In this document: one piece after another, positions 1 through 14,955 of the stretch
Layout: the number at the start of each line of letters is the position of its first letter
Position numbering within the stretch: the stretch's first letter is position 1
Virus record (IMG/VR): IMGVR_UViG_3300020430_000102
Coordinates: 1 to 22,534 of that record
Reading direction: 5' to 3' (one strand)
Source: a virus
DNA: 22,534 nt
Position numbers and translations under genes: made by a program
Notes under the pieces: model-generated
Database searches by the model: none
Told to the model about the DNA's origin: nothing
Seen by the model: the letters and a program-made list of their open reading frames with translations, nothing else

Positions 1-415
1 CTTGCTGAGAAGCATTGAGCTGAATAGCCGGATCATTCTCAATCTCAATTGAGTTTTGCCTGTTTTTAGGATCCTGTAGTCGTGCTTCACGGCGAGTGAA
101 TGCGCCTGCCAGTTCCTTGTCGGGGTCAGCATACCGCTGCGAAAATTCCTGAAAAGAAAATGAGCGGTGTCTTAGAATTTGCCGAGCAATATCCCGAGTT
201 GTAGTGATTTCTAAACAAGCACTTGCCATTTCCAATGGTGACCAGTGCTGGTTTTTAATAAGATACTGAACGAGCTTGTCAGCTGTCTTTTTATTTTGTT
301 GATTGCCTGGATTCGAGACTCTTGCGCAAAACGCTACAAGATCTTGTGTGTCCTCGATTCCCTGCACCCTGAACTCTTCGGTCGGGATGCTGTGGCTTAC
401 TAGTTTTACTTGCAT
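1..415 (-). CDS. thyX: Flavin-dependent thymidylate synthase ThyX, C-terminus beyond the window
   Basis: Only the first 138 residues are present; the gene runs off the left edge, so the C-terminal part cannot be judged. I translated it by hand: it begins MQVKLVSHSIP and carries the ThyX signature RHRxxxxxxxS as RHRSFSFQEFS at residues 82-92, followed by QRY. The motif binds dUMP and FAD. The enzyme methylates dUMP to dTMP using methylene-tetrahydrofolate and reduced flavin. In a T4-like phage it supplies thymidylate for DNA replication in place of the ThyA-type gp td. The ATG at 415 overlaps the TAA of gp46 by one base (TAATG), so it is probably translationally coupled as the last visible cistron of the gp55-gp47-gp46 unit. 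I am confident of the family. Full length and activity are not testable here. Confidence 0.93.
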   Translation of the reverse strand, partial: MQVKLVSHSIPTEEFRVQGIEDTQDLVAFCARVSNPGNQQNKKTADKLVQYLIKNQHWSPLEMASACLEITTTRDIARQILRHRSFSFQEFSQRYADPDKELAGAFTRREARLQDPKNRQNSIEIENDPAIQLNASQQ

Positions 416-2130
416 TATGCTACCTTTGAAAAGTTTCTTTCTTTTACGAACTCAATCTTCGATCTGAACTTACCGTCAAGTAAATCTCCCTTATGTGATA
501 TTACAAAGACGTTCGTTCCATCCTCAAGAGTACCGAGAATCTTCATAAGATTATCGATACCATCGTGGTCGAGAGATGAGTCGAATGTTTCATCAAGGAT
601 GAGAAGATTCGTAGATGCTGAGTTCTTCATCCTAGCGATCTGTCGCCAGGTGAATAGAAGAGCCAGATCAATACGTTGCTTTTCGCCCTCGCTAAACGAA
701 GAATAGTTAAAAGTATCACGATATCTTGATTTAATCGACTCGTTAAAGTTTTCATCCAAATCAAATGATACGAAAAAATCAAGTGTATTAAGATATTTAT
801 TCACTAAGTTATTCATAACCGGCAAATATTCTTTAACAATTTTAGTTTTGATACCACTATCCTTGAGCATCTCGCCAGCTGCATCATTATAGGATTTCTC
901 ATCGATGTACTGAAGCTTGCGTTCTGCAATATCATCTCGTTCATCAATAAGAGTTTGTAGTTCTGTATTGGCCTCACCAAGATCACCGGTTGAACCGGTA
1001 AGATTTTCAATATCTGTACGAAGAGCTTTGATTTGATCCTGTAATCTACCAATAGTAATATTGTTTGAATGAATTTCAGATTGCTTTTCGCGAATCTGGT
1101 TTGACGTTTCCTGTACCTCATTTAAATTAGTGACAACCGTATTCATTTCAGTTTGTACTTCGCCAAGTGCATCTTGAACTTTTTTGGCTTTTGCTTTTGC
1201 TTCGCCTAACTTCTTATCTCGAAGTTCCTGCCCAATCTCTTGTTCACATGTAGGACATTCGCTGTTATCTTCATAGAACTTGGCATCATTTACAGTAGTT
1301 TTGACTTGTTGTTCAAACTGGTGTTTGTAGTTGAGGAGTGCTTGCTTTTTGTCATTCAATTCTTTCAGGCCAGCTTCTACAGCTGTTTGATTATCTGTCA
1401 CAAACTGTGTAGCTTCATTGGAATGCTGCTGCAGGTCATAGACTTCGTTTTCGCAATCTGCAATCTCTTGTTCTTTATCGCTTTTCTTTTCTTCGTTGAG
1501 TTCAGTAATGTCACGAATGTACTTGCGCTGTAGATTGATTTTTTCTTTTGCAAGATCAAGTTGGTAGTTTGTATCAGTAATCTCCTGTTTGAGAGTAACA
1601 TTTTTCTCACGTAAGATTTGATTCATCTTTGTGAATACTTGAATGTCAAGTAAGTCTTCAATCACTTCACGTCTATGGTGAGATGATAGCTGCATAAAAG
1701 GAATAAACGATGAAGAGCCAAGTACCACAATCTGATGAAATGATTTATGATTGAGCTTAAGGATATTTTGCTCAAGAAACTTTTGATAGTCACGAGCAGC
1801 CGAAGCCTGATTAATCATATTGCCATTTTGCCAGATCTCAAACTTGTTTGGTTTGATACCTCTTACAATCTTAAATGAGTGTGATCCAATATCAAACTCC
1901 ACTTCAACCAAACAGCTTTTGCCATTGATGGTATTAATCATCTGTGATTTATTGATATTGCGATGTGGTTTACCAAACAAACCAAAAGACACTGCATCGA
2001 GCAAGGTTGACTTGCCAGATCCATTATCACCAACAATCAATGTACTTGGTGATCGGTCAAGTTGAATATGTGTAAAGTTATCGCCCGTTGAAAGAAAGTT
2101 CTTCCAACGTACGTTCCTAAAAATAATCAT
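415..2130 (-). CDS. 46: gp46, SbcC/Rad50-like recombination endonuclease subunit
   Basis: The 571-residue protein matches the T4 gp46 size class. It forms the ATPase subunit of the gp46/gp47 nuclease that resects DNA ends for phage recombination-dependent replication and degrades host DNA. Visible parts in order: N-terminal Walker A GDNGSGKS (residues 34-41), a long coiled coil (about 165-440), a zinc-hook CPTC in mid-coil (292-295), the ABC signature FSEGEKQR (about 479-486) and Walker B LLILDE (about 509-514) followed by the D-loop. The start codon is directly after the gp47 TAG (TAGATG, no gap), which points to coupled translation. No separate promoter was seen. Identification rests on the complete motif set plus the gp47 neighbour. 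Confidence 0.96.
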   Translation of the reverse strand: MIIFRNVRWKNFLSTGDNFTHIQLDRSPSTLIVGDNGSGKSTLLDAVSFGLFGKPHRNINKSQMINTINGKSCLVEVEFDIGSHSFKIVRGIKPNKFEIWQNGNMINQASAARDYQKFLEQNILKLNHKSFHQIVVLGSSSFIPFMQLSSHHRREVIEDLLDIQVFTKMNQILREKNVTLKQEITDTNYQLDLAKEKINLQRKYIRDITELNEEKKSDKEQEIADCENEVYDLQQHSNEATQFVTDNQTAVEAGLKELNDKKQALLNYKHQFEQQVKTTVNDAKFYEDNSECPTCEQEIGQELRDKKLGEAKAKAKKVQDALGEVQTEMNTVVTNLNEVQETSNQIREKQSEIHSNNITIGRLQDQIKALRTDIENLTGSTGDLGEANTELQTLIDERDDIAERKLQYIDEKSYNDAAGEMLKDSGIKTKIVKEYLPVMNNLVNKYLNTLDFFVSFDLDENFNESIKSRYRDTFNYSSFSEGEKQRIDLALLFTWRQIARMKNSASTNLLILDETFDSSLDHDGIDNLMKILGTLEDGTNVFVISHKGDLLDGKFRSKIEFVKERNFSKVA

Positions 2131-3192
2131 CTATAGAATTTCCCTATTCTGCGCTTCTACATAAAGGCCACGCATAACCGCCTTCATTCTATCTTTGTTT
2201 AATTCAGTGTCAACTGCATCTACGTATGAGTCAAGAAGTTCAGTGGTATCTTCTACACTGATGCTTTCATCCATTACATTTTCGCCTGAAAACTCGTCAA
2301 AGGTTTCTGCAATCTTTAACTCATGAATGTTTTCTTGAGAAATACGATCAATAAAGCGATCAAAGACAAATGGATCTGTTTTGTTTACAACTACTACTTT
2401 TACGAACTGGTCATTGTACATGTCAGTAGGTTGCATATTGTAATCTGTTGAAGTATCATCATAGAATACTTTCTTAAAGATTGTGAGTGGATTACGAACC
2501 TGTGTAAGTTCACGAGTTTCGGTATCAATCACATGAAAGTATTTAGGATCTCCAGCATCTGCCCAAGTAAATTCCATTTGAGAACCAAGGTAGTGAATAT
2601 TACCTTGACTTGACTTTGTATGGAAGTGGCCTGATAGCACAGCTTCGAAGCGATTGAAGACGTCTGTACCCATACCATGAGTATTCTTGACACCTCTCAT
2701 CATGTCAAAGCCAATAAGCTCAAGGTGAGCAGCTACCCAATCTGCAGGTACTTGCTGTAGCCATGCCATTGTTGATTGATGATTTTCATTGTTGATCCAT
2801 GGAACACATGCCACTTTCAAAGTGTCGTATGTTACAACGGTAGGTTCCATCATAATGTTAACGTTACTTGTAAAGTAACCAAGCAGCTCTTTCAATGAGC
2901 AGAGCTGATTTGTATTTTTGTAGTACACATCGTGATTACCCGGAAAGATGTCCATAGTAATACCTAAGTCACGCATAGGTTCTAGAAACACTTTACGGTT
3001 ATCATTGAGTGCTTTGAAATTAACAAACTTACGGTGATCATAGTAATCACCTAAGTGCAAGATCTGTTTGATGTTATGTTCCTTCATATAAGGAAAGAAC
3101 ACTTCAGTGTAAAACTTTTCTTGATATTTCAAAAATATGTCTGAGCTATTTCTGACGCCACAATGGGTGTCATTCAAGACTGCAACTTTCAT
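2131..3192 (-). CDS. 47: gp47, SbcD/Mre11-like nuclease subunit
   Basis: A 353-residue calcineurin-like metallophosphoesterase. Metal-binding motifs are in the expected order: DTH (residues 8-10), GDYYDHR (48-54), GNHD (85-88) and GHFH (188-191). This is the Mre11-type nuclease partner of gp46, acting on double-strand ends during recombination-dependent replication. It starts 3 bp after the gp55 stop, in the run TAATGAATG; the first ATG there is out of frame with this gene. gp55, gp47 and gp46 therefore look like one operon. T4 gp47 is of similar length. Nothing is missing from the catalytic core. Confidence 0.96.
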   Translation of the reverse strand: MKVAVLNDTHCGVRNSSDIFLKYQEKFYTEVFFPYMKEHNIKQILHLGDYYDHRKFVNFKALNDNRKVFLEPMRDLGITMDIFPGNHDVYYKNTNQLCSLKELLGYFTSNVNIMMEPTVVTYDTLKVACVPWINNENHQSTMAWLQQVPADWVAAHLELIGFDMMRGVKNTHGMGTDVFNRFEAVLSGHFHTKSSQGNIHYLGSQMEFTWADAGDPKYFHVIDTETRELTQVRNPLTIFKKVFYDDTSTDYNMQPTDMYNDQFVKVVVVNKTDPFVFDRFIDRISQENIHELKIAETFDEFSGENVMDESISVEDTTELLDSYVDAVDTELNKDRMKAVMRGLYVEAQNREIL

Positions 3193-3195
3193 TCA

Positions 3196-3783
3196 TTACC
3201 CCATAAACAGTTCAATGCCTGTTTTTTTCTTTTCTGGTGCCTTTTTCTTCTTTTCCTCTTTAGCAAAATCAGAAATGGCTTTATCGTTTGAGCGAACGAC
3301 ATCAATCCGTTCGCGAAGCTGGTCAACAAACGATCTTGTTACAGACATGTCTGCTGCTCCGCCAATTTGGTCATATTGGACAAAGTCTTCAATTCCTGCC
3401 CGTTCAATAAATTTGAATTTAATATCCTGCTGCTTCTTTTCCTTTGCAAGCCTGCGTAGGAAAGCATAGTAACAGATCTGTGTAAAGTACGCAAAAGCGT
3501 TAGGATTGCCTGTTCGTGTTGCCGCATCGATATTGTAGTTGGTAATTGCTTTGAGGCAGTTTTCTACTGCGTCCATCACCATCTCTTCTCGATACGTGTA
3601 CCTGATAAAGTTAGCCTTATGTGATAACCCTTCGGCAATCTTAAGGAAACATTCTGCAATGTAATTAGGTACGTTTGGAATAGTCTTTCCAGAAGCCTGA
3701 GCTTCATTTACGGTTTTCACGTATTCTACCACAGCTAACGAGAACTCTTTGTTATTCACGTAGTGAGGTTTTTGTTTTTTCAT
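3196..3783 (-). CDS. 55: gp55, late-transcription sigma factor
   Basis: I start this at ATG 3783 (195 residues). A longer reading would begin at TTG 3795, but that codon lies inside the Shine-Dalgarno sequence TTGGAGGATACGATG. The ATG sits 5 bases behind GGAGG. The protein directs host RNA polymerase core to late promoters. The conserved sigma region 2-like helix FAYFTQICYYAFLRR is at residues 97-111, matching the block typical of T4 gp55. The C-terminus is lysine-rich and then ends GIELFMG. Short hydrophobic/acidic C-terminal tails of this kind bind the sliding clamp gp45 in T4 gp55, so I infer the same use here. The gene lies directly behind a host-type early promoter, which suits a regulator made before the late genes. 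The co-activator gp33 is not in the window. Confidence 0.93.
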   Translation of the reverse strand: MKKQKPHYVNNKEFSLAVVEYVKTVNEAQASGKTIPNVPNYIAECFLKIAEGLSHKANFIRYTYREEMVMDAVENCLKAITNYNIDAATRTGNPNAFAYFTQICYYAFLRRLAKEKKQQDIKFKFIERAGIEDFVQYDQIGGAADMSVTRSFVDQLRERIDVVRSNDKAISDFAKEEKKKKAPEKKKTGIELFMG

Positions 3784-3808
3784 CGTATCCTCCAATGATT
3801 ATGATATT

Positions 3809-3837
3809 ATTATACCACAAACGTAAGGTATTGTAAA
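3809..3837 (-). promoter_or_regulatory. Host sigma70-type early promoter for gp55-gp47-gp46-thyX
   Basis: On the minus strand: -35 TTTACA (3837-3832), a spacer of exactly 17 bp, and -10 TATAAT (3814-3809) in the extended form TGTGGTATAAT. This resembles T4 early promoters (GTTTAC ... GTGGTATAAT). The start site should fall near 3802, about 20 bases before the gp55 ATG, with the GGAGG ribosome site in between. Confidence 0.85.
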
Positions 3838-3872
3838 CCATTAATTTTTTTCACTTTTGTGCATTTTAGGGG

Positions 3873-3901
3873 TTTACAAAACCGTAAAACTGTGGTATAA
3901 T
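3873..3901 (+). promoter_or_regulatory. Rightward sigma70-type early promoter, antisense to the late genes
   Basis: On the plus strand: -35 TTTACA (3873-3878), 17 bp, -10 TATAAT (3896-3901), again in the context TGTGGTATAAT. It points right, against every gene in the window. The first genes it meets are the 129-residue protein and uvsW, both on the opposite strand. The sequence match is as good as for the gp55 promoter; what is unknown is its product. Confidence 0.75.
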
Positions 3902-3914
3902 TAACTGTGGTTAA
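3888..3914. repeat. Direct repeat and small dyad at the rightward promoter start site
   Basis: AACTGTGGT occurs twice, at 3888-3896 and 3903-3911, 15 bp apart. The second copy lies inside the dyad TTAAC-TGTG-GTTAA (3901-3914), over the expected start site near 3908. This placement is operator-like. It could also be chance in AT-rich DNA. Confidence 0.45.
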
Positions 3915-3934
3915 GGGGGGAGGATATACCAGTT

Positions 3935-4324
3935 CTAGTGAAAGGTCTTTGGTCCTGGAAACTTAATGATATTTCCGTCGCTATCGGTAAGTTCATGATC
4001 ATCGGCCAGTTCTTCAACTTCGTAATCCTCAAATGGTTCTGGTTCTTCATCCATTCGCAAGCAAATTTGAATGTATCTTTCTTTAACCACATCTAAGCAT
4101 TCCGAATGAGATACGACGTTATTCGGGTTTACCACGCACTCGTCTTTATCCGCAAATGGGTGCCATTGCGAAAAGAAGAATCCTCCCTTTGCAGCTCGAT
4201 GGATTTGCAATGGGCGTTCCAATACAATAATCTCGTCGCTTCTATTTCCGGCAACGTAGCTTATCACTTCATCGCCTGAGGTAAACTTAATATGTCTTAT
4301 GTTGACACCGTCGTAATCTTTCAT
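3935..4324 (-). CDS. Small acidic phage protein, possibly Sm-like fold
   Basis: 129 residues. The N-terminal half (about 8-85) reads as short beta strands: IRHIKFTSGDEVISYV, then a strand EIIVLERPLQIHR, then a segment with FFSQWHPF and a strand before NPNNVVSHSECL. The C-terminus (from about 97) is very acidic (EEPEPFEDYEVEELADD). The pattern 'gEEVI ... ItlenPlqi ... pf ... i....v' resembles small, probably Sm/Hfq-like barrel proteins common in marine T4-like phages; this is recall of a family pattern, not a proven match. The ATG overlaps the uvsW stop as ATGA, so it is coupled to uvsW. It is the last gene before the divergent promoter region. Function unknown. Confidence 0.8.
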   Translation of the reverse strand: MKDYDGVNIRHIKFTSGDEVISYVAGNRSDEIIVLERPLQIHRAAKGGFFFSQWHPFADKDECVVNPNNVVSHSECLDVVKERYIQICLRMDEEPEPFEDYEVEELADDHELTDSDGNIIKFPGPKTFH

Positions 4325-5820
4325 ATATCAATCTCGTAGATGTTATAGTTGAACTTTTCTCTTGAGTATATCTTAATACGTTCTGCAGCATGCAATAGAG
4401 TATAGTTTTTGTTTTTCTTCCAATGCAAGTCGTCTGCAATGTCATATAATGTAGTAGGTCTACCATCATCGCTTTTTCTTAACCCTCTACCAATACTCTG
4501 TAAAATACGTATCTGGCTTTTAGAAGGAGAAGCAAATATGATATTATGAAGGTTCCTAATATTTATACCTGTCGAGAATGTTCCCATACTCGCTACAATA
4601 ATTGCATTCTTTTCGTTTTCTGTAATGCTTCGAATCTGTTCACGTGAATCTACATCTGTTTCACCTGACACATAAAAGATCTTACGTCTCCTATGAGCTT
4701 TGTCGGTGATCATAGTGTGTAGTGGCTTACCGTGTTTTTCTACAAACTGAAACAGGATAAGTGTGTTTCCGTCCTGGTCAAGTGCAAGATTCGTAATGAA
4801 CTTATTCCTTGCTTCATGCTTCACAATAAAGTCAACTTCTTCTTGATACTTTGACTTGTTCATAAGCTTACACAACTCGTCTGAATACTTGAGTAGCAAC
4901 ACCTTAATATCAAGCTCAGCCAGTGAGCCTTTTTCCATCAAGTCTTTTGTCGTTGTAACTTTGAATGTTCTGCCGAATAAGCCTTCCAAAACAAGCTGAT
5001 GAGTCTGTGTTCCGTCAAGTGTACCGGTGGTTCCAATCCTATATTCAGCATCTCTCATCTTGCCAAGGATTGAAGTAAGCGATTTTGCTTTAAAGTTATG
5101 AGCTTCATCACCGACAACCATGCCAAACTGCTCAAACCATTTTCCTGGCATCTTGTAAATTGACTGCCAAGTACTAATAATAATACGTTCTTGATCTGCA
5201 AACTTAGGTCGACCTGAATAAATCCTATGCATCATATCCTCACCAAAGTTTTCATCATACTGCGAGTAATCTGCAAAGTCGCTAAACATCTGTTGAACAA
5301 GCGATGTTGTTGGTACCACCACAAGAATCTTCTTGTTATAGTTTTCAAGGTAGTATCTTGCCATGCAGTAAATGATAAGTGATTTACCTGATGCAGTTGG
5401 CGATAACAGCAAAGATCCTTTACGTGATAAGCCGTGTTCAATCGCAGCGCGCTGGTAATCACGTACTTCGATCTTATTACCTTTCGACGTCAACGTAAGA
5501 TCATTAATGAATCCCATGTCAATGTCCTGCTTAATTGCAGGATATCCATAGTAGTTATCGTGTTCAAGTTCAATCTTATAGTCACGACCATCTACTGCAG
5601 CAAACTCTTCAATATAATCATACAGGCCTGCGTATAATTCGCGAGTCTGTGTATTGAACAGACGAATCTTTCCATCCCACATTTTGTTTCGATATGCTGG
5701 CATAAATTTATAACCAGGAACGTAAAATGTAAAGAAGTCACTGAGTTCATTTAACGTCGATGGTTCACCATCAACTGTAATATATGCGTGGTTTTTCTTC
5801 TTAATAGTTAAAGTAGACAT
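4321..5820 (-). CDS. uvsW: UvsW, recombination DNA/RNA helicase
   Basis: 499 residues from the ATG at 5820, which overlaps the uvsY TAA (TAATG). An in-frame ATG exists 27 bases upstream at 5847 but would lie inside uvsY, and the chosen start gives the expected length (T4 UvsW is about 500). It is a superfamily 2 helicase: Walker A SPTASGKS at about 140-147, DEAH at about 238-241, TGTLDGT motif III-like region, and motif VI QSIGRGLRKSD near the C-terminus. UvsW unwinds branched intermediates and R-loops, and so drives the switch from origin-dependent to recombination-dependent replication. It sits with uvsY, gp46 and gp47, the same functional set as in T4. Confidence 0.95.
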   Translation of the reverse strand: MSTLTIKKKNHAYITVDGEPSTLNELSDFFTFYVPGYKFMPAYRNKMWDGKIRLFNTQTRELYAGLYDYIEEFAAVDGRDYKIELEHDNYYGYPAIKQDIDMGFINDLTLTSKGNKIEVRDYQRAAIEHGLSRKGSLLLSPTASGKSLIIYCMARYYLENYNKKILVVVPTTSLVQQMFSDFADYSQYDENFGEDMMHRIYSGRPKFADQERIIISTWQSIYKMPGKWFEQFGMVVGDEAHNFKAKSLTSILGKMRDAEYRIGTTGTLDGTQTHQLVLEGLFGRTFKVTTTKDLMEKGSLAELDIKVLLLKYSDELCKLMNKSKYQEEVDFIVKHEARNKFITNLALDQDGNTLILFQFVEKHGKPLHTMITDKAHRRRKIFYVSGETDVDSREQIRSITENEKNAIIVASMGTFSTGINIRNLHNIIFASPSKSQIRILQSIGRGLRKSDDGRPTTLYDIADDLHWKKNKNYTLLHAAERIKIYSREKFNYNIYEIDI

Positions 5821-6263
5821 TAGACACCCGAAGTAAATTTCCTCCATTCAATCATGTTCTTAATTGTTTGGTGCCTCCATTTGATATTTTCAAGGATTTC
5901 TTTGAGAGTATCGATTTGAACTTTAAGCAGTTCAATTCTTGCTTGTGCTTCTTGAATATGTATATCCGAGTCATAGTAGTAATCCATCTCGCCTTTGAGG
6001 ATCTTCAGTCCGTCAAGAGGATCATAACTCCAGCCAAGCTCGTCGATTTGTGCTTTACTTAACTTGCCATTGTACCACAACCATTTTTGCTTAAGTAGTA
6101 CTTTAAAGTCGAGCTCGCGTTTACGAAGCTGCAGCTTTGCATTCGAATGTAGTTCAAGATATTTTGAATGAAGTTTAGCGCCATCCATTGAGGCGGTGTC
6201 TAAATGCATCTCATCGATCTGAGAGTCACGTTTCCACATTTCGTATATATCATCAAGTGTCAT
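5820..6263 (-). CDS. uvsY: UvsY, recombination mediator
   Basis: 147 residues, close to the 137 of T4 UvsY. The start is MTLDDIYEMWKRDSQID, the typical UvsY N-terminus. The rest is strongly helical with a C-terminal coiled coil (about 95-135). UvsY loads the UvsX recombinase on gp32-coated single-stranded DNA. It ends by overlapping uvsW by one base. An AGGA ribosome site precedes the ATG and a late-type box (AATAAATA) lies 19 bases upstream. UvsX itself is not in the window. The call rests on the N-terminal motif, the size and the uvsW neighbour. Confidence 0.9.
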   Translation of the reverse strand: MTLDDIYEMWKRDSQIDEMHLDTASMDGAKLHSKYLELHSNAKLQLRKRELDFKVLLKQKWLWYNGKLSKAQIDELGWSYDPLDGLKILKGEMDYYYDSDIHIQEAQARIELLKVQIDTLKEILENIKWRHQTIKNMIEWRKFTSGV

Positions 6264-6281: not shown

Positions 6282-6289
6282 TATTTATT
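6282..6289 (-). promoter_or_regulatory. Candidate late promoter for uvsY-uvsW
   Basis: Minus-strand AATAAATA, one base from T4 TATAAATA and matching the NATAAATA form. It overlaps the stop codon of the gp19-like gene and would start RNA near 6275, leaving about 12 bases of leader with AGGA before the uvsY ATG. The weakest of the six intergenic late boxes, because the area is A/T-rich. Confidence 0.45.
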
Positions 6290-6806
6290 TAAACTTATAA
6301 TAGCTGTAGTTGAAAGAAGCAACTGCAGTAAGGTATTCAACATCAGTAACGTTTGTAGAGAAAGGAAGCGAACTTAGCGAAATTGGATATGCATCTACAA
6401 ATATGATTTCTTGTCCTACGTTGTTATGGCTAGTCAAAATTTGTAGCGTCAAGTCTCTTGTCTTTCTGCTTGTGTAACTTGCTTGATCCGGCTCAATGAC
6501 CAGACCAAGAATCCAGTCATGAATCTCTTTATAGTTCATGAGATCTTCATCGATCAAAAATGCAACTTCAAGCGATGCATATTCAAGCTTGTCAGGCATG
6601 GCAGCAATATTACGTTGTTTATATAGCAATGGAGCTCCAGCCGTTGAAACATCGGGCAAGCTTGCAGTTTGCACAAAGTACTGTGCGTTCTTGTATTTCA
6701 AAGAATCGATGAGAAGTCTAAAGCCTGACGGATTTACAAACGCAGTTTGATCCTGTGTCGGTGCTTGATAATCATCACTAAAATTAACTTTAGTCGTGTA
6801 AGGCAT
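6285..6806 (-). CDS. gp19-like tail-tube-fold structural protein (second copy)
   Basis: 173 residues, the size of T4 gp19 and of the tube protein encoded at 14428-14955. It shares the gp19 layout: an N-terminal FRLLIDSLKY strand, the 'ASLPDVS' turn (tube proteins have 'a.LPa'), a middle 'l.VaFLIDEDLMNYKEIHDWILGL' segment where gp19 has 'w.vtv.nD....r.ameRWm', and a C-terminal 'F.dayPisLssLpfs...dveYltavasFnYsyY' matching the 'G.fPtnvs.i.lsyd....eef.veL.yqYw' region. I infer a baseplate-tube or tail-terminal paralog. Exact role unknown. GAGGA lies just before the ATG. It lies between the accessory enzymes and uvsY, away from the main tail block. Confidence 0.7.
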   Translation of the reverse strand: MPYTTKVNFSDDYQAPTQDQTAFVNPSGFRLLIDSLKYKNAQYFVQTASLPDVSTAGAPLLYKQRNIAAMPDKLEYASLEVAFLIDEDLMNYKEIHDWILGLVIEPDQASYTSRKTRDLTLQILTSHNNVGQEIIFVDAYPISLSSLPFSTNVTDVEYLTAVASFNYSYYKFK

Positions 6807-6857: not shown

Positions 6858-7946
6858 TTAATCCAAGCCATGTACATTTTGATACGCAGCAAATAATTCT
6901 TCAGCAATTTTTTCATGGCCCTTTTCATTCGGATGATAGTCTCCATTTTGCTTCCCAGGCTCCGAAGGTTTTAAGACGTAAGAACGTCCCCAAGTTTCAG
7001 GATCCCAGTCTTTCCATTTATCTGCAAAAGCCCATCCTCCAAGTTGTGCCCAATAAGGCCAACCAACATGTAGCCCACCGTCAATATTAAAAGCATGCGG
7101 GCTTTCGAAAGCTTTTTCCGGAAATCCGCAGAAAGCTTCTCTCCACAATTGCTTAAGTCTTTCAGGTGCATCGGGTATTGCCTGCACATCGCCTTGATCA
7201 AGTCTTTTACTAATTTCTTTTTCTTCAATACTATTTATATCACCTGCGTATTGAAACAAAATTTGTTTAACCATATTTGATGATATGGGTTGATTTGCAT
7301 GACCCATAATTAGCTTAATATTATTTCTTTCACAGAAATCCTGAGCTTGCATGAATGTTCTTAAAGCGCTATGTGCTATGCTGGCTAGCCAAGTTGCTTT
7401 TTTTAACACACCTAATGCGATATCAACTTTATCTGCATTGCGAGAAGGTGCATAGTAATCATCACTTTGATCTATAAGATAATTGTTTCGAATTTCCGAC
7501 AGCACAATTAAGTTACTGTTGAATATATCGAATCTATCCCAACTCGACCATAGTATGAAAATCGCTTCCGGAAGCATATCTTCTTCAAGAAGCATGATAT
7601 CTTGTATTTGATTCCATATTCTTTGATTGCCCGCTCCTGAAATACCAGTGTTCCAATACTTTTCATAGCCGAGTTTATGAGCTATCACTTCCGGCCATTT
7701 AGCATATTTCCAATCATCTCTAATCAGAGTGTCAGGATCATAACTGCTGTAATCACCTTGAAAGAAATGATCGGTGTAACTGCAACCTCCACAAATGATG
7801 TATGGTTTTTTCTTATCAGTGGATGAGCAAAAGCGATTTCCCCTATAGTAATCCCACTGTCTTTCTTTCCAATCTTGACCTCTTGGTCTTTGATTTCGAG
7901 TTATATAAGGATACTTGAACTGCGCATCAGTAAACTGCGATTTCAT
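6858..7946 (-). CDS. SGNH/GDSL-like hydrolase
   Basis: 362 residues from the ATG at 7946. An earlier in-frame ATG at 7970 lies deeper in the carbamoyltransferase, while 7946 has GGTGGAG eight bases upstream. Visible SGNH features: a block I-type GGCSYTDHF (about 53-61, candidate nucleophile Ser56), a glycine block NTGISGAGN (99-107), a WSSWDRFD strand end (133-140), and the C-terminal catalytic block DYHPNEKGH (336-344, candidate Asp336 and His338). No signal peptide or membrane segment is seen. Members hydrolyse or transfer acyl groups on sugars, lipids or other esters; the substrate here is unknown. It overlaps the upstream carbamoyltransferase by 20 bp, so the two are co-translated and probably work on one pathway. 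The family call is by motif only. Confidence 0.75.
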   Translation of the reverse strand: MKSQFTDAQFKYPYITRNQRPRGQDWKERQWDYYRGNRFCSSTDKKKPYIICGGCSYTDHFFQGDYSSYDPDTLIRDDWKYAKWPEVIAHKLGYEKYWNTGISGAGNQRIWNQIQDIMLLEEDMLPEAIFILWSSWDRFDIFNSNLIVLSEIRNNYLIDQSDDYYAPSRNADKVDIALGVLKKATWLASIAHSALRTFMQAQDFCERNNIKLIMGHANQPISSNMVKQILFQYAGDINSIEEKEISKRLDQGDVQAIPDAPERLKQLWREAFCGFPEKAFESPHAFNIDGGLHVGWPYWAQLGGWAFADKWKDWDPETWGRSYVLKPSEPGKQNGDYHPNEKGHEKIAEELFAAYQNVHGLD

Positions 7947-9246
7947 ATTTTTTACTCCACCTTTGGCCATCTTCCCATGTATTGACCATGGGTTCGCCTT
8001 TTACATTCAATGATGTATTTAATAACATAGGACATCTCGTTGCTTTAAACCATTCTTCTAGGATCGGTCGCAGTATAGACTTACAGTCTTTCCGCACGAC
8101 TTGCACACGGGACGATCCATCTACATGAATAACTGACTTGTAATCGTGGTTTGCCTTTGCAACATACTGCATGTATTCATTCATCGGTCCTTCAAAAAAC
8201 TGCTCGGAATATTCTTCCAGGATGGCTGGTGCAAAGGGCCTAAATTTTTGTCTTCTTTTGATGGCGTTAACAGTGTCCTTAATATCATGACGGGGGTCAG
8301 CAAGAAGACTGCGATTACCAAGGGCGCGAGGACCAAACTCAGCACGGCCATGAACCACACCACAAATGCGATGCTGAAGAAGATGTCCAGCAATTTCACG
8401 GGGATTTGCACTAACGTCGACATTTTTACCAAGATAAGTATCCTTCCATTTGAGGGGTTTATCGAGATATGCAGCTGCAGCCCCTAAACTTGCACCTGCA
8501 TCGCCTGGGTTCGGCATGATCCAGACTTTGTCAAATAACCAATGTATCTTACTATTTACTACGCAATTAAGAGCAACTCCTCCTGCATAGCAAAGGTACT
8601 TTGAGTATTCCCTTGCTTTTTGCATAATTTGAATAATCTTTTGTTCGAGCAACCATTGGGCAGACGCAGCTAGGTCTTCATTCCTTGCATTAGGAAATAT
8701 GTTACCACATCCCTTGTGCAGATTAACTTGCAAAACGTCTTCAAGATTATACACCGGTTCTCCAAACCCGGCCATGCCCATAGTAATGTACTCATCTTCC
8801 ATAGGCTTGAGTCCAATCCTCTGTGTGATTGCAGAATAAAACAAGCCAAGTGAGTAAGGATATTTTTGTGACCAAACTTTCTTTTTCTTATACCAAATGG
8901 AAACAGTATCCCATTCGCCAATAGCATCAACCACCACACAAACAGGCTCTTCCGGCCACGGGCGGGTGTAGTACGCGCCTGCCGCGTGCGACCAATGATG
9001 AGATACAGACTTATGTCTACCTCTCCATTTGATCTTTTGTCCTGCATAAAGTCGTCGAGTATTCTTGAGAATTTGCTTCTCATAGAACACTTCCACTCCT
9101 TGATTCGGAGGCATATCGGGGTGTAAGTTTTTGTCGTTCTTTATACGACTATATCGTTCAGCATGACCAGCATATATGATATTACCTTTCAAGTCAATAA
9201 TCGTTTTAGCTGCATCATGAAATCCATAAGACAAACCGGTAATCAT
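7927..9246 (-). CDS. NodU/TobZ-family carbamoyltransferase
   Basis: 439 residues with the full family motif set: GFHDAA (8-13), ERYSRIKND (30-38), HHWSHAAGAY (83-92), VVVDAIGEWD (104-113), AGGVALNC (221-228), EFGPRALGNRSLL (303-315) and RPFAPA (336-341). These enzymes make carbamoyl-adenylate from carbamoyl phosphate and ATP (YrdC-like C-terminal part plus Kae1-like N-terminal part) and pass the carbamoyl group to a hydroxyl. Known acceptors include sugars and antibiotics, and phage relatives have been linked to carbamoylation of hydroxymethylated cytosine in DNA. The acceptor here cannot be read from the sequence. It lies behind the gp23 terminator with a late box ending 6 bases from the ATG and no ribosome site. 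T4 has gene 24 after gene 23, so this is accessory content. Confidence 0.93.
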   Translation of the reverse strand: MITGLSYGFHDAAKTIIDLKGNIIYAGHAERYSRIKNDKNLHPDMPPNQGVEVFYEKQILKNTRRLYAGQKIKWRGRHKSVSHHWSHAAGAYYTRPWPEEPVCVVVDAIGEWDTVSIWYKKKKVWSQKYPYSLGLFYSAITQRIGLKPMEDEYITMGMAGFGEPVYNLEDVLQVNLHKGCGNIFPNARNEDLAASAQWLLEQKIIQIMQKAREYSKYLCYAGGVALNCVVNSKIHWLFDKVWIMPNPGDAGASLGAAAAYLDKPLKWKDTYLGKNVDVSANPREIAGHLLQHRICGVVHGRAEFGPRALGNRSLLADPRHDIKDTVNAIKRRQKFRPFAPAILEEYSEQFFEGPMNEYMQYVAKANHDYKSVIHVDGSSRVQVVRKDCKSILRPILEEWFKATRCPMLLNTSLNVKGEPMVNTWEDGQRWSKKYEIAVY

Positions 9247-14427: not shown

Positions 14428-14955
14428 TTAAGTAGTAGTGTTAGATTCCCAGTACTGAACCTGAAGTTCAACTGTGAATTCCTCAATCGCGTTTTCCGTA
14501 TCGTAGGAAAGTTCGATTGCAGACACGTTAGTTGGGAAAGTACCACGGAAGTCATAACGCTTCACCGAGTCGCCGTTCTTATTCAGTTGCTCGACAACCA
14601 TGTCAGCCTGATATTCGACCGGATCTACAAGACCAGTGTTATTGTTATGCTGGTTGATACCATTCATCCAACGTTCCATAGCGTTACGAACTGCAAAGTC
14701 CGTATCGTTAATCACAGTTATAGTCCAAGGTTCAAACGTTCTATCACCAGCAATCTGCAGCTGTCTGCCGCGGAATGGGATAGTGATAGGTGCAATCACC
14801 GATGCAGGAAGCTGAGCAGCTTTACACATGAAAGATGTCAGTTCTACGTCGCCGGCTGCGTACGAAGGAAAATTGATCGTCGCTTTGAAGAGGTTAGCGC
14901 GGGCTCCGCCACCAACCAGCTTCGACTTGAAGTCATCTACGCCTAAAATTGCCAT
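14428..14955 (-). CDS. 19: gp19, tail tube protein
   Basis: 175 residues (T4 163). It shows the gp19 landmarks: FMCKAAQLPASVI, PIPFRGRQLQIAGDRTF (here ITIPFRGRQLQIAGDRTF), EPWTITVINDTDFAVRNAMERWM and the C-terminal FPTNVSAIELSYD ... EFTVELQVQYWE. Hexamers stack to form the inner tail tube through which DNA passes. AAGGAGGA lies 7 bases before the ATG; the gap to gp18 is 12 bp, so it is co-transcribed with the sheath gene. Small difference from T4: a 10-residue N-terminal extension. Confidence 0.95.
   Translation of the reverse strand: MAILGVDDFKSKLVGGGARANLFKATINFPSYAAGDVELTSFMCKAAQLPASVIAPITIPFRGRQLQIAGDRTFEPWTITVINDTDFAVRNAMERWMNGINQHNNNTGLVDPVEYQADMVVEQLNKNGDSVKRYDFRGTFPTNVSAIELSYDTENAIEEFTVELQVQYWESNTTT

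Follow-up and report, generated by a model that had tools for sequence, protein, structure and literature searches.

The window, a stretch of 22,534 nt, comes from the genome of a T4-like phage and has its nearest matches among the Kyanoviridae; its gp55 is closest, among named genomes, to that of phage C48C1 (61% identity). The minus strand carries, in this order, genes for head and tail, then uvsY, uvsW, a 129-aa gene, a gap, gp55, gp47, gp46, and thyX (Table 1), and PHROG profiles bear out the gene identities that the initial annotation had assigned to gp55, gp47, gp46, thyX, uvsW, and uvsY. The gp55 gene is listed as 199 aa with a TTG start and has an in-frame ATG at 3783. The family of the 129-aa gene is labelled 'methylamine utilization' in named phages; histidine is the last residue in 52 of 59 relatives, in a C-terminal region that is otherwise variable. 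A pattern scan for late-type promoters ([N]ATAAATA) returned 10 on the minus strand and 1 on the plus strand. Within the structural module, a Nol-like carbamoyltransferase gene (7927-9246) and a neighbor without a PHROG match (6858-7970) are accompanied by a strong intrinsic terminator (9290-9267, minus strand). Two genes, 6285-6806 and 14428-14955, both match the tail-tube family phrog_45, the former much more weakly.

Table 1. Features in and around the gp55 gap of the window, and extra promoter-plus-leader copies at the positions given in related genomes
Feature	Position	Strand	Evidence or remark
thyX-like thymidylate synthase, truncated by window end	2..415	-	PHROG 85
gp46 (SbcC-like)	415..2130	-	PHROG 77
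gp47 (SbcD-like), downstream in gp55 operon	2131..3192	-	PHROG 100
gp55, late sigma factor	3196..3795	-	PHROG 234, E=3.5e-53
gp55-operon (leftward) promoter	3809..3837	-	11/12; conserved partner of antisense promoter; -35 TTTACA 3837-3832, -10 TATAAT 3814-3809
AT-rich spacer between -35 boxes	3838..3872		length sets rotational phase
Antisense (rightward) sigma70-type promoter	3873..3901	+	11/12 match; -35 TTTACA 3873-3878, TG 3893-3894, -10 TATAAT 3896-3901
Conserved initial transcribed region of predicted antisense RNA	3902..3932	+	profile, 53 non-redundant relatives
129-aa gene, phrog_527/471	3935..4324	-	PHROG match and synteny
uvsW helicase	4321..5847	-	PHROG 16
uvsY recombination mediator	5820..6263	-	PHROG 231
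Late-promoter-like AATAAATA, upstream of uvsY	6282..6289	-	pattern scan
Extra copies, G002	12120 (+), 122588 (-)
Extra copies, G001	25093, 139159 (+)
Extra copy, syn9	52741
Extra copy, S-PM2	162737
Extra copy, Syn1	16507

The gap upstream of gp55 holds two divergent promoters, as first noted, each with near-consensus hexamers separated by 17 bp, within the 16-18 bp spacing of sigma70-type early promoters, and each with TG before the -10; within the first 12 kb, no other site scores 11/12 with TG. The pair had been described as a 31-bp inverted repeat with 25 matches; the repeat is real, but a direct count gives 24 matches in its 31 positions, and arms of 36 nt are 78% complementary. The rightward promoter was correctly said to have no gene to serve, all main genes to its right being on the minus strand, and its motifs support its assignment to the sigma70 (early) type, facing late-type promoters that run in the opposite direction. 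RNA made from it is predicted to overlap the 3' end of the 129-aa gene, and late transcription from 6289 would run towards it.

The antisense promoter is a selected element and not a remnant: of 56 related loci, 91% have one of this strength in the corresponding position. This figure comes from an antisense-strand scan of non-redundant gp55 gaps from viral contigs, with a score of at least 11 as the threshold, which 4% of uvsW-side control regions and 1% of dinucleotide shuffles also reach; the promoter scores served both for finding and for scoring elements, which these controls offset only partly. The suggestion that the rightward boxes are under selection, for which their loss in close relatives had been named as a refutation, is thus supported by their retention. 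The antisense promoter lies upstream of gp55 in 11 of the 12 named Kyanoviridae examined (syn9, S-PM2, Syn1, S-RSM4, P-SSM2, P-RSM4, S-CAM8, Syn19, P-SSM7, S-CREM1, and C48C1) and is weakly recognizable in the twelfth, Melnitz-3. A 69-bp element of S-PM2 has matches in 49 records, nearly all of them cyanophages with ≥80% identity, and among the matches listed many adjoin gp55 in antisense.

Conservation extends into the first transcribed stretch, or leader. A profile anchored on the -10 (53 non-redundant clade elements) reveals conserved boxes, a 13-nt purine tract in which C is rare, and TATAC, with information down to background ~37 nt past the start of the -10. The conserved part of the predicted transcript is its initial ~25 nt, which is lineage-specific in form. 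In the window, GGGGGGAGGATATACC at 3915-3930 comprises a G-rich purine tract and then TATAC; the cyanophage leader (consensus AACNCTGTNAGGGTTCA) differs from that of this clade, and the Melnitz-like leader is a third form, which by eye looks alignable with the cyanophage leader. The promoter-plus-leader conservation profile has the same shape in three other lineages, the mean information of the leader being 1.00-1.15 bits in cyanophages and 0.62 in Melnitz-like phages, and 0.2-0.4 further on. We rejected the idea that strong promoters generally have the purine tract, since only 2 of 107 in five genomes do (the gap copy of G003 and a second copy in G001). We also rejected a sense-strand role for the C-rich stretch that follows the 129-aa gene, because the distance of the leader from the promoter is nearly constant and the leader also accompanies the promoter in copies oppositely oriented to genes. 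Rfam covariance models gave no match above a gathering score.

The purine tract resembles a Shine-Dalgarno sequence, and a 52-codon open frame is present in the window, as would be expected if a small antisense gene were hidden behind a strong ribosome-binding site (GGGGGGAGG). However, a synonymous-shuffle test on the relatives found no conserved antisense ORF: frame lengths (27.1 codons) are those expected from the shuffles (26.4), which led us to reject a conserved antisense protein behind the G-rich tract, and in several relatives the ATG is followed by an immediate stop. We therefore regard a small gene here as highly improbable.

The short extent of conservation also bears on the idea that a long antisense RNA made early, or else head-on transcription, keeps the 129-aa gene, uvsW, and uvsY repressed up to the point at which gp55 takes over. 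The orientation of the promoter, its sigma70 type, and the opposing late-type promoters such as that at 6289 all fit such silencing, as does the lack of a convincing terminator just downstream of the antisense promoter. The initial annotation had raised this as a possible role, but the evidence does not support it for uvsW and uvsY: conservation ends close to the promoter, and silencing predicts neither the leader conservation, nor the phasing with the gp55 promoter, nor the sense-oriented promoter-plus-leader copies found in most complete relatives (both described below). Moreover, late genes would be silent early in any case, as they are in T4, because gp55 is then absent. Silencing is thus, in our estimate, quite unlikely.

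The distance between the two promoters follows a rule that usually puts both on one face of the helix. The first bases of the -10 boxes lie 82 bp apart in the window, and across non-redundant loci this distance clusters at 60-63, 69-72, 79-85, 90-94, and 100-101 bp, being quantized with a best period of 10.4 bp (R=0.66, p<=2e-4 in a jitter test, n=61-62, that is, 62 loci including the outlier L117 at 156 bp and 61 without it); because loci enter these tests as independent, the jitter p values given here and below are optimistic. The clusters are not single clades, since a gp55 tree requires at least 29 changes of phase class; phase steps between independent sister pairs gave p=0.02. The phasing rule was then tested on the twelve named phages and three held-out sets, and these held-out loci, taken together, yielded p<=5e-5 (n=140). 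Syn9-like loci fit (30/31, 40, 48-49, and 59 bp), as do Melnitz-like loci (mostly 60-61, 70-74, 81-83, and 100-101 bp); Syn1/S-PM2-like loci (L311-L390) are off the rule, lying mostly at 49-54 bp with a peak at 53 rather than ~50 bp, about a quarter turn away. Promoter picks are less certain in the divergent lineages (Melnitz-like and Syn1-like), and the distances there may be blurred for that reason. As a control, the distance from each promoter to the next ATG was measured; in every set it shows weaker periodicity than the promoter pair, by a small margin in the Syn1-like set (0.57 vs 0.55). In Syn9-like phages with a distance of 30 bp, the spacer of each promoter holds the -35 of the other, and the two promoters should therefore be mutually exclusive there.

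Profile and alignment searches of complete relatives revealed one or two further promoter-plus-leader copies in most of them (syn9, S-PM2, Syn1, S-RSM4, P-RSM4, Syn19, S-CREM1, Melnitz-3, G001, and G002), whereas the same searches found no good second copy in C48C1, G003 (incomplete), P-SSM2, or P-SSM7. The second copies mostly read in sense into small early-type genes, and several directly follow gp5 or directly precede the gp25/gp6 baseplate block. One G002 copy is antisense and divergent from an nrdA-looking gene, so judged by its sequence rather than by a profile search, and belongs there to a second divergent pair whose distance, by coordinates, is likewise 101 bp. The leader of a second copy resembles the gap copy of the same genome, as expected if a shared trans-acting factor, such as a phage regulator, bound the leader as an operator immediately downstream of two or three early promoters; the antisense RNA would then be incidental. 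The Melnitz and cyanophage leaders, which look alignable by eye, are compatible with this. On the other hand, duplication or gene conversion could also keep the copies alike, the leader lacks dyad symmetry by eye, and no candidate regulator was identified; we consider an operator improbable.

Both promoters, the conservation of promoter plus leader, the want of a conserved ORF, the phasing in most lineages, and the second copies are read from the sequence, and from them we infer transcription itself and an effect in cis, with its sign and timing. Such features favor an element that is local and coupled in cis to the gp55 promoter over a long silencing RNA, because conservation is limited to promoter and leader, because the antisense promoter is phased with the gp55 promoter, and because the two promoters overlap in Syn9-like phages. 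As far as they allow a judgment, the antisense promoter is a real control or replication element whose RNA is predicted to be non-coding. We tentatively propose, at a probability of roughly 0.4, that the gap is a phase-locked divergent pair of sigma70-type promoters acting in cis as a single unit that controls the gp55-47-46 operon. Of the two promoters, one would drive gp55, and the transcript of the other would be non-coding and run antisense to where the late uvsY-uvsW operon ends, the useful part of this antisense unit probably being local, that is, the promoter and the first ~25 nt. Polymerase would bind, initiate, and be slowed in the antisense leader, which is G-rich and predicted to be hybrid-prone here; the slowed polymerase could then affect the gp55 promoter by competition or by contact on the same face of the helix, or else by supercoiling, and so set the timing and strength of late sigma and recombination nuclease production. 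Counted against this proposal are the misfit of the Syn1/S-PM2-like loci, the sister-pair result of only p=0.02, and the second copies, which mostly have no obvious phased partner, so that the leader must also act independently of gp55. Nor does control in cis account for why phase should matter if both polymerases cannot bind at once.

The strongest rival is a replication origin. Here, as at T4 oriE or oriF, the antisense early RNA would form an R-loop at its G-rich start and prime leading-strand synthesis that enters the late module, and UvsW, encoded next to it, would later unwind the R-loop. For stability of RNA:DNA over DNA:DNA, the leader is in the top 0.03% of its own window (best-of-6), and in 95% of relatives the R-loop energy is lower than the 1% single-site level of the window, these energies being estimates from nearest-neighbor parameters. 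Such predicted hybrid stability downstream of the antisense promoter, extreme in this clade, suits a slowed polymerase, R-loop formation, or priming; however, it is moderate in the cyanophage and Melnitz leaders, and two G3 tracts occur in only 46% of relatives. At fourfold sites, GC skew shows a positive step at the gap in 10 of 13 genomes, but this step is weak and broad, confounded with the change from late to early genes, and absent in three; in raw cumulative skew, the coding strand dominates and turning points are not consistently at the gap. The second copies are often close to gp5 or gp25/gp6. T4 itself supplies two precedents, oriE with an early primer in antisense and oriF next to uvsY: its record annotates the oriE primer as complementary to the gene 5 transcript and places oriF between uvsY and 25. 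According to a T4 review, oriE is apparently dependent on an early promoter, and origin R-loops are unwound by UvsW (PMC3016281). Against these stand the lack of an iteron-like repeat array, a search for 12-nt direct repeats having given only weak two- and three-copy matches, and the phasing, which an origin does not need. We judge an origin of this kind unlikely. Its broader form, a family-wide origin of T4-like marine phages in which two helically phased divergent early promoters and an antisense G-rich R-loop primer would couple replication start to late sigma expression, with shut-off via UvsW, is rather doubtful; if true, the extra copies would mark further origins.

Comparison with known systems places the gap near several of them. 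Like T4 oriE, it has an early-mode promoter and an RNA complementary to a late virion-gene transcript, here as predicted from sequence and orientation only; unlike oriE, which lies in gene 5, encodes repEA/repEB, and has iterons, it contains neither a conserved ORF nor iterons, and its promoter is phased to a divergent partner. Like T4 oriF (ori-uvsY), it adjoins uvsY in a T4-type genome and combines a promoter with downstream DNA predicted, in this clade, to be R-loop-prone. In oriF, however, a MotA middle promoter, with a MotA box replacing the -35, reads uvsY in sense, whereas both gap promoters have a -35 and the sigma70 promoter reads antisense. The bidirectional bacterial promoters described by the Grainger laboratory share with the gap divergent sigma70 initiation in which the second RNA is often antisense and non-coding, but they use one near-symmetric -10 with start sites 7-25 bp apart (PMC10268837). 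The gap instead has two full, strongly conserved promoters, their -10 boxes being mostly 30-113 bp apart in ~10-bp steps (82 bp here and at least 27 bp elsewhere). The mitochondrial LSP-CSB II primer element likewise joins a promoter to a G-rich transcript tract favoring hybrid and quadruplex (PMC4357710), although it serves an unrelated polymerase and two G3 tracts are, as noted, present in fewer than half of the relatives. The CfrI RNA of S-PM2 is also antisense in a T4-like cyanophage, but it lies at psbA and a homing endonuclease gene rather than at gp55, and is experimentally confirmed, in S-PM2 only (PMC2984593).

T4-like cyanophages are without MotA and AsiA, and their transcription timing and replication start sites are not settled (PMC2984593). 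Our literature search found no transcription-start map of a T4-like cyanophage, and the portions consulted of two RNA-seq papers (PMC5082946, PMC5931967) contained nothing on the gp55 gap. The gap offers one small, conserved, mutable site in culturable phages (Syn9, S-PM2) for testing both questions. By the phasing rule, an antisense promoter easily taken for noise is probably a selected partner of a key regulatory promoter. In some relatives (L008, L010, L013, and L015-L018), a small extra gene seems to be present between the divergent promoters and gp55, and the promoter pair remains 5' of it.
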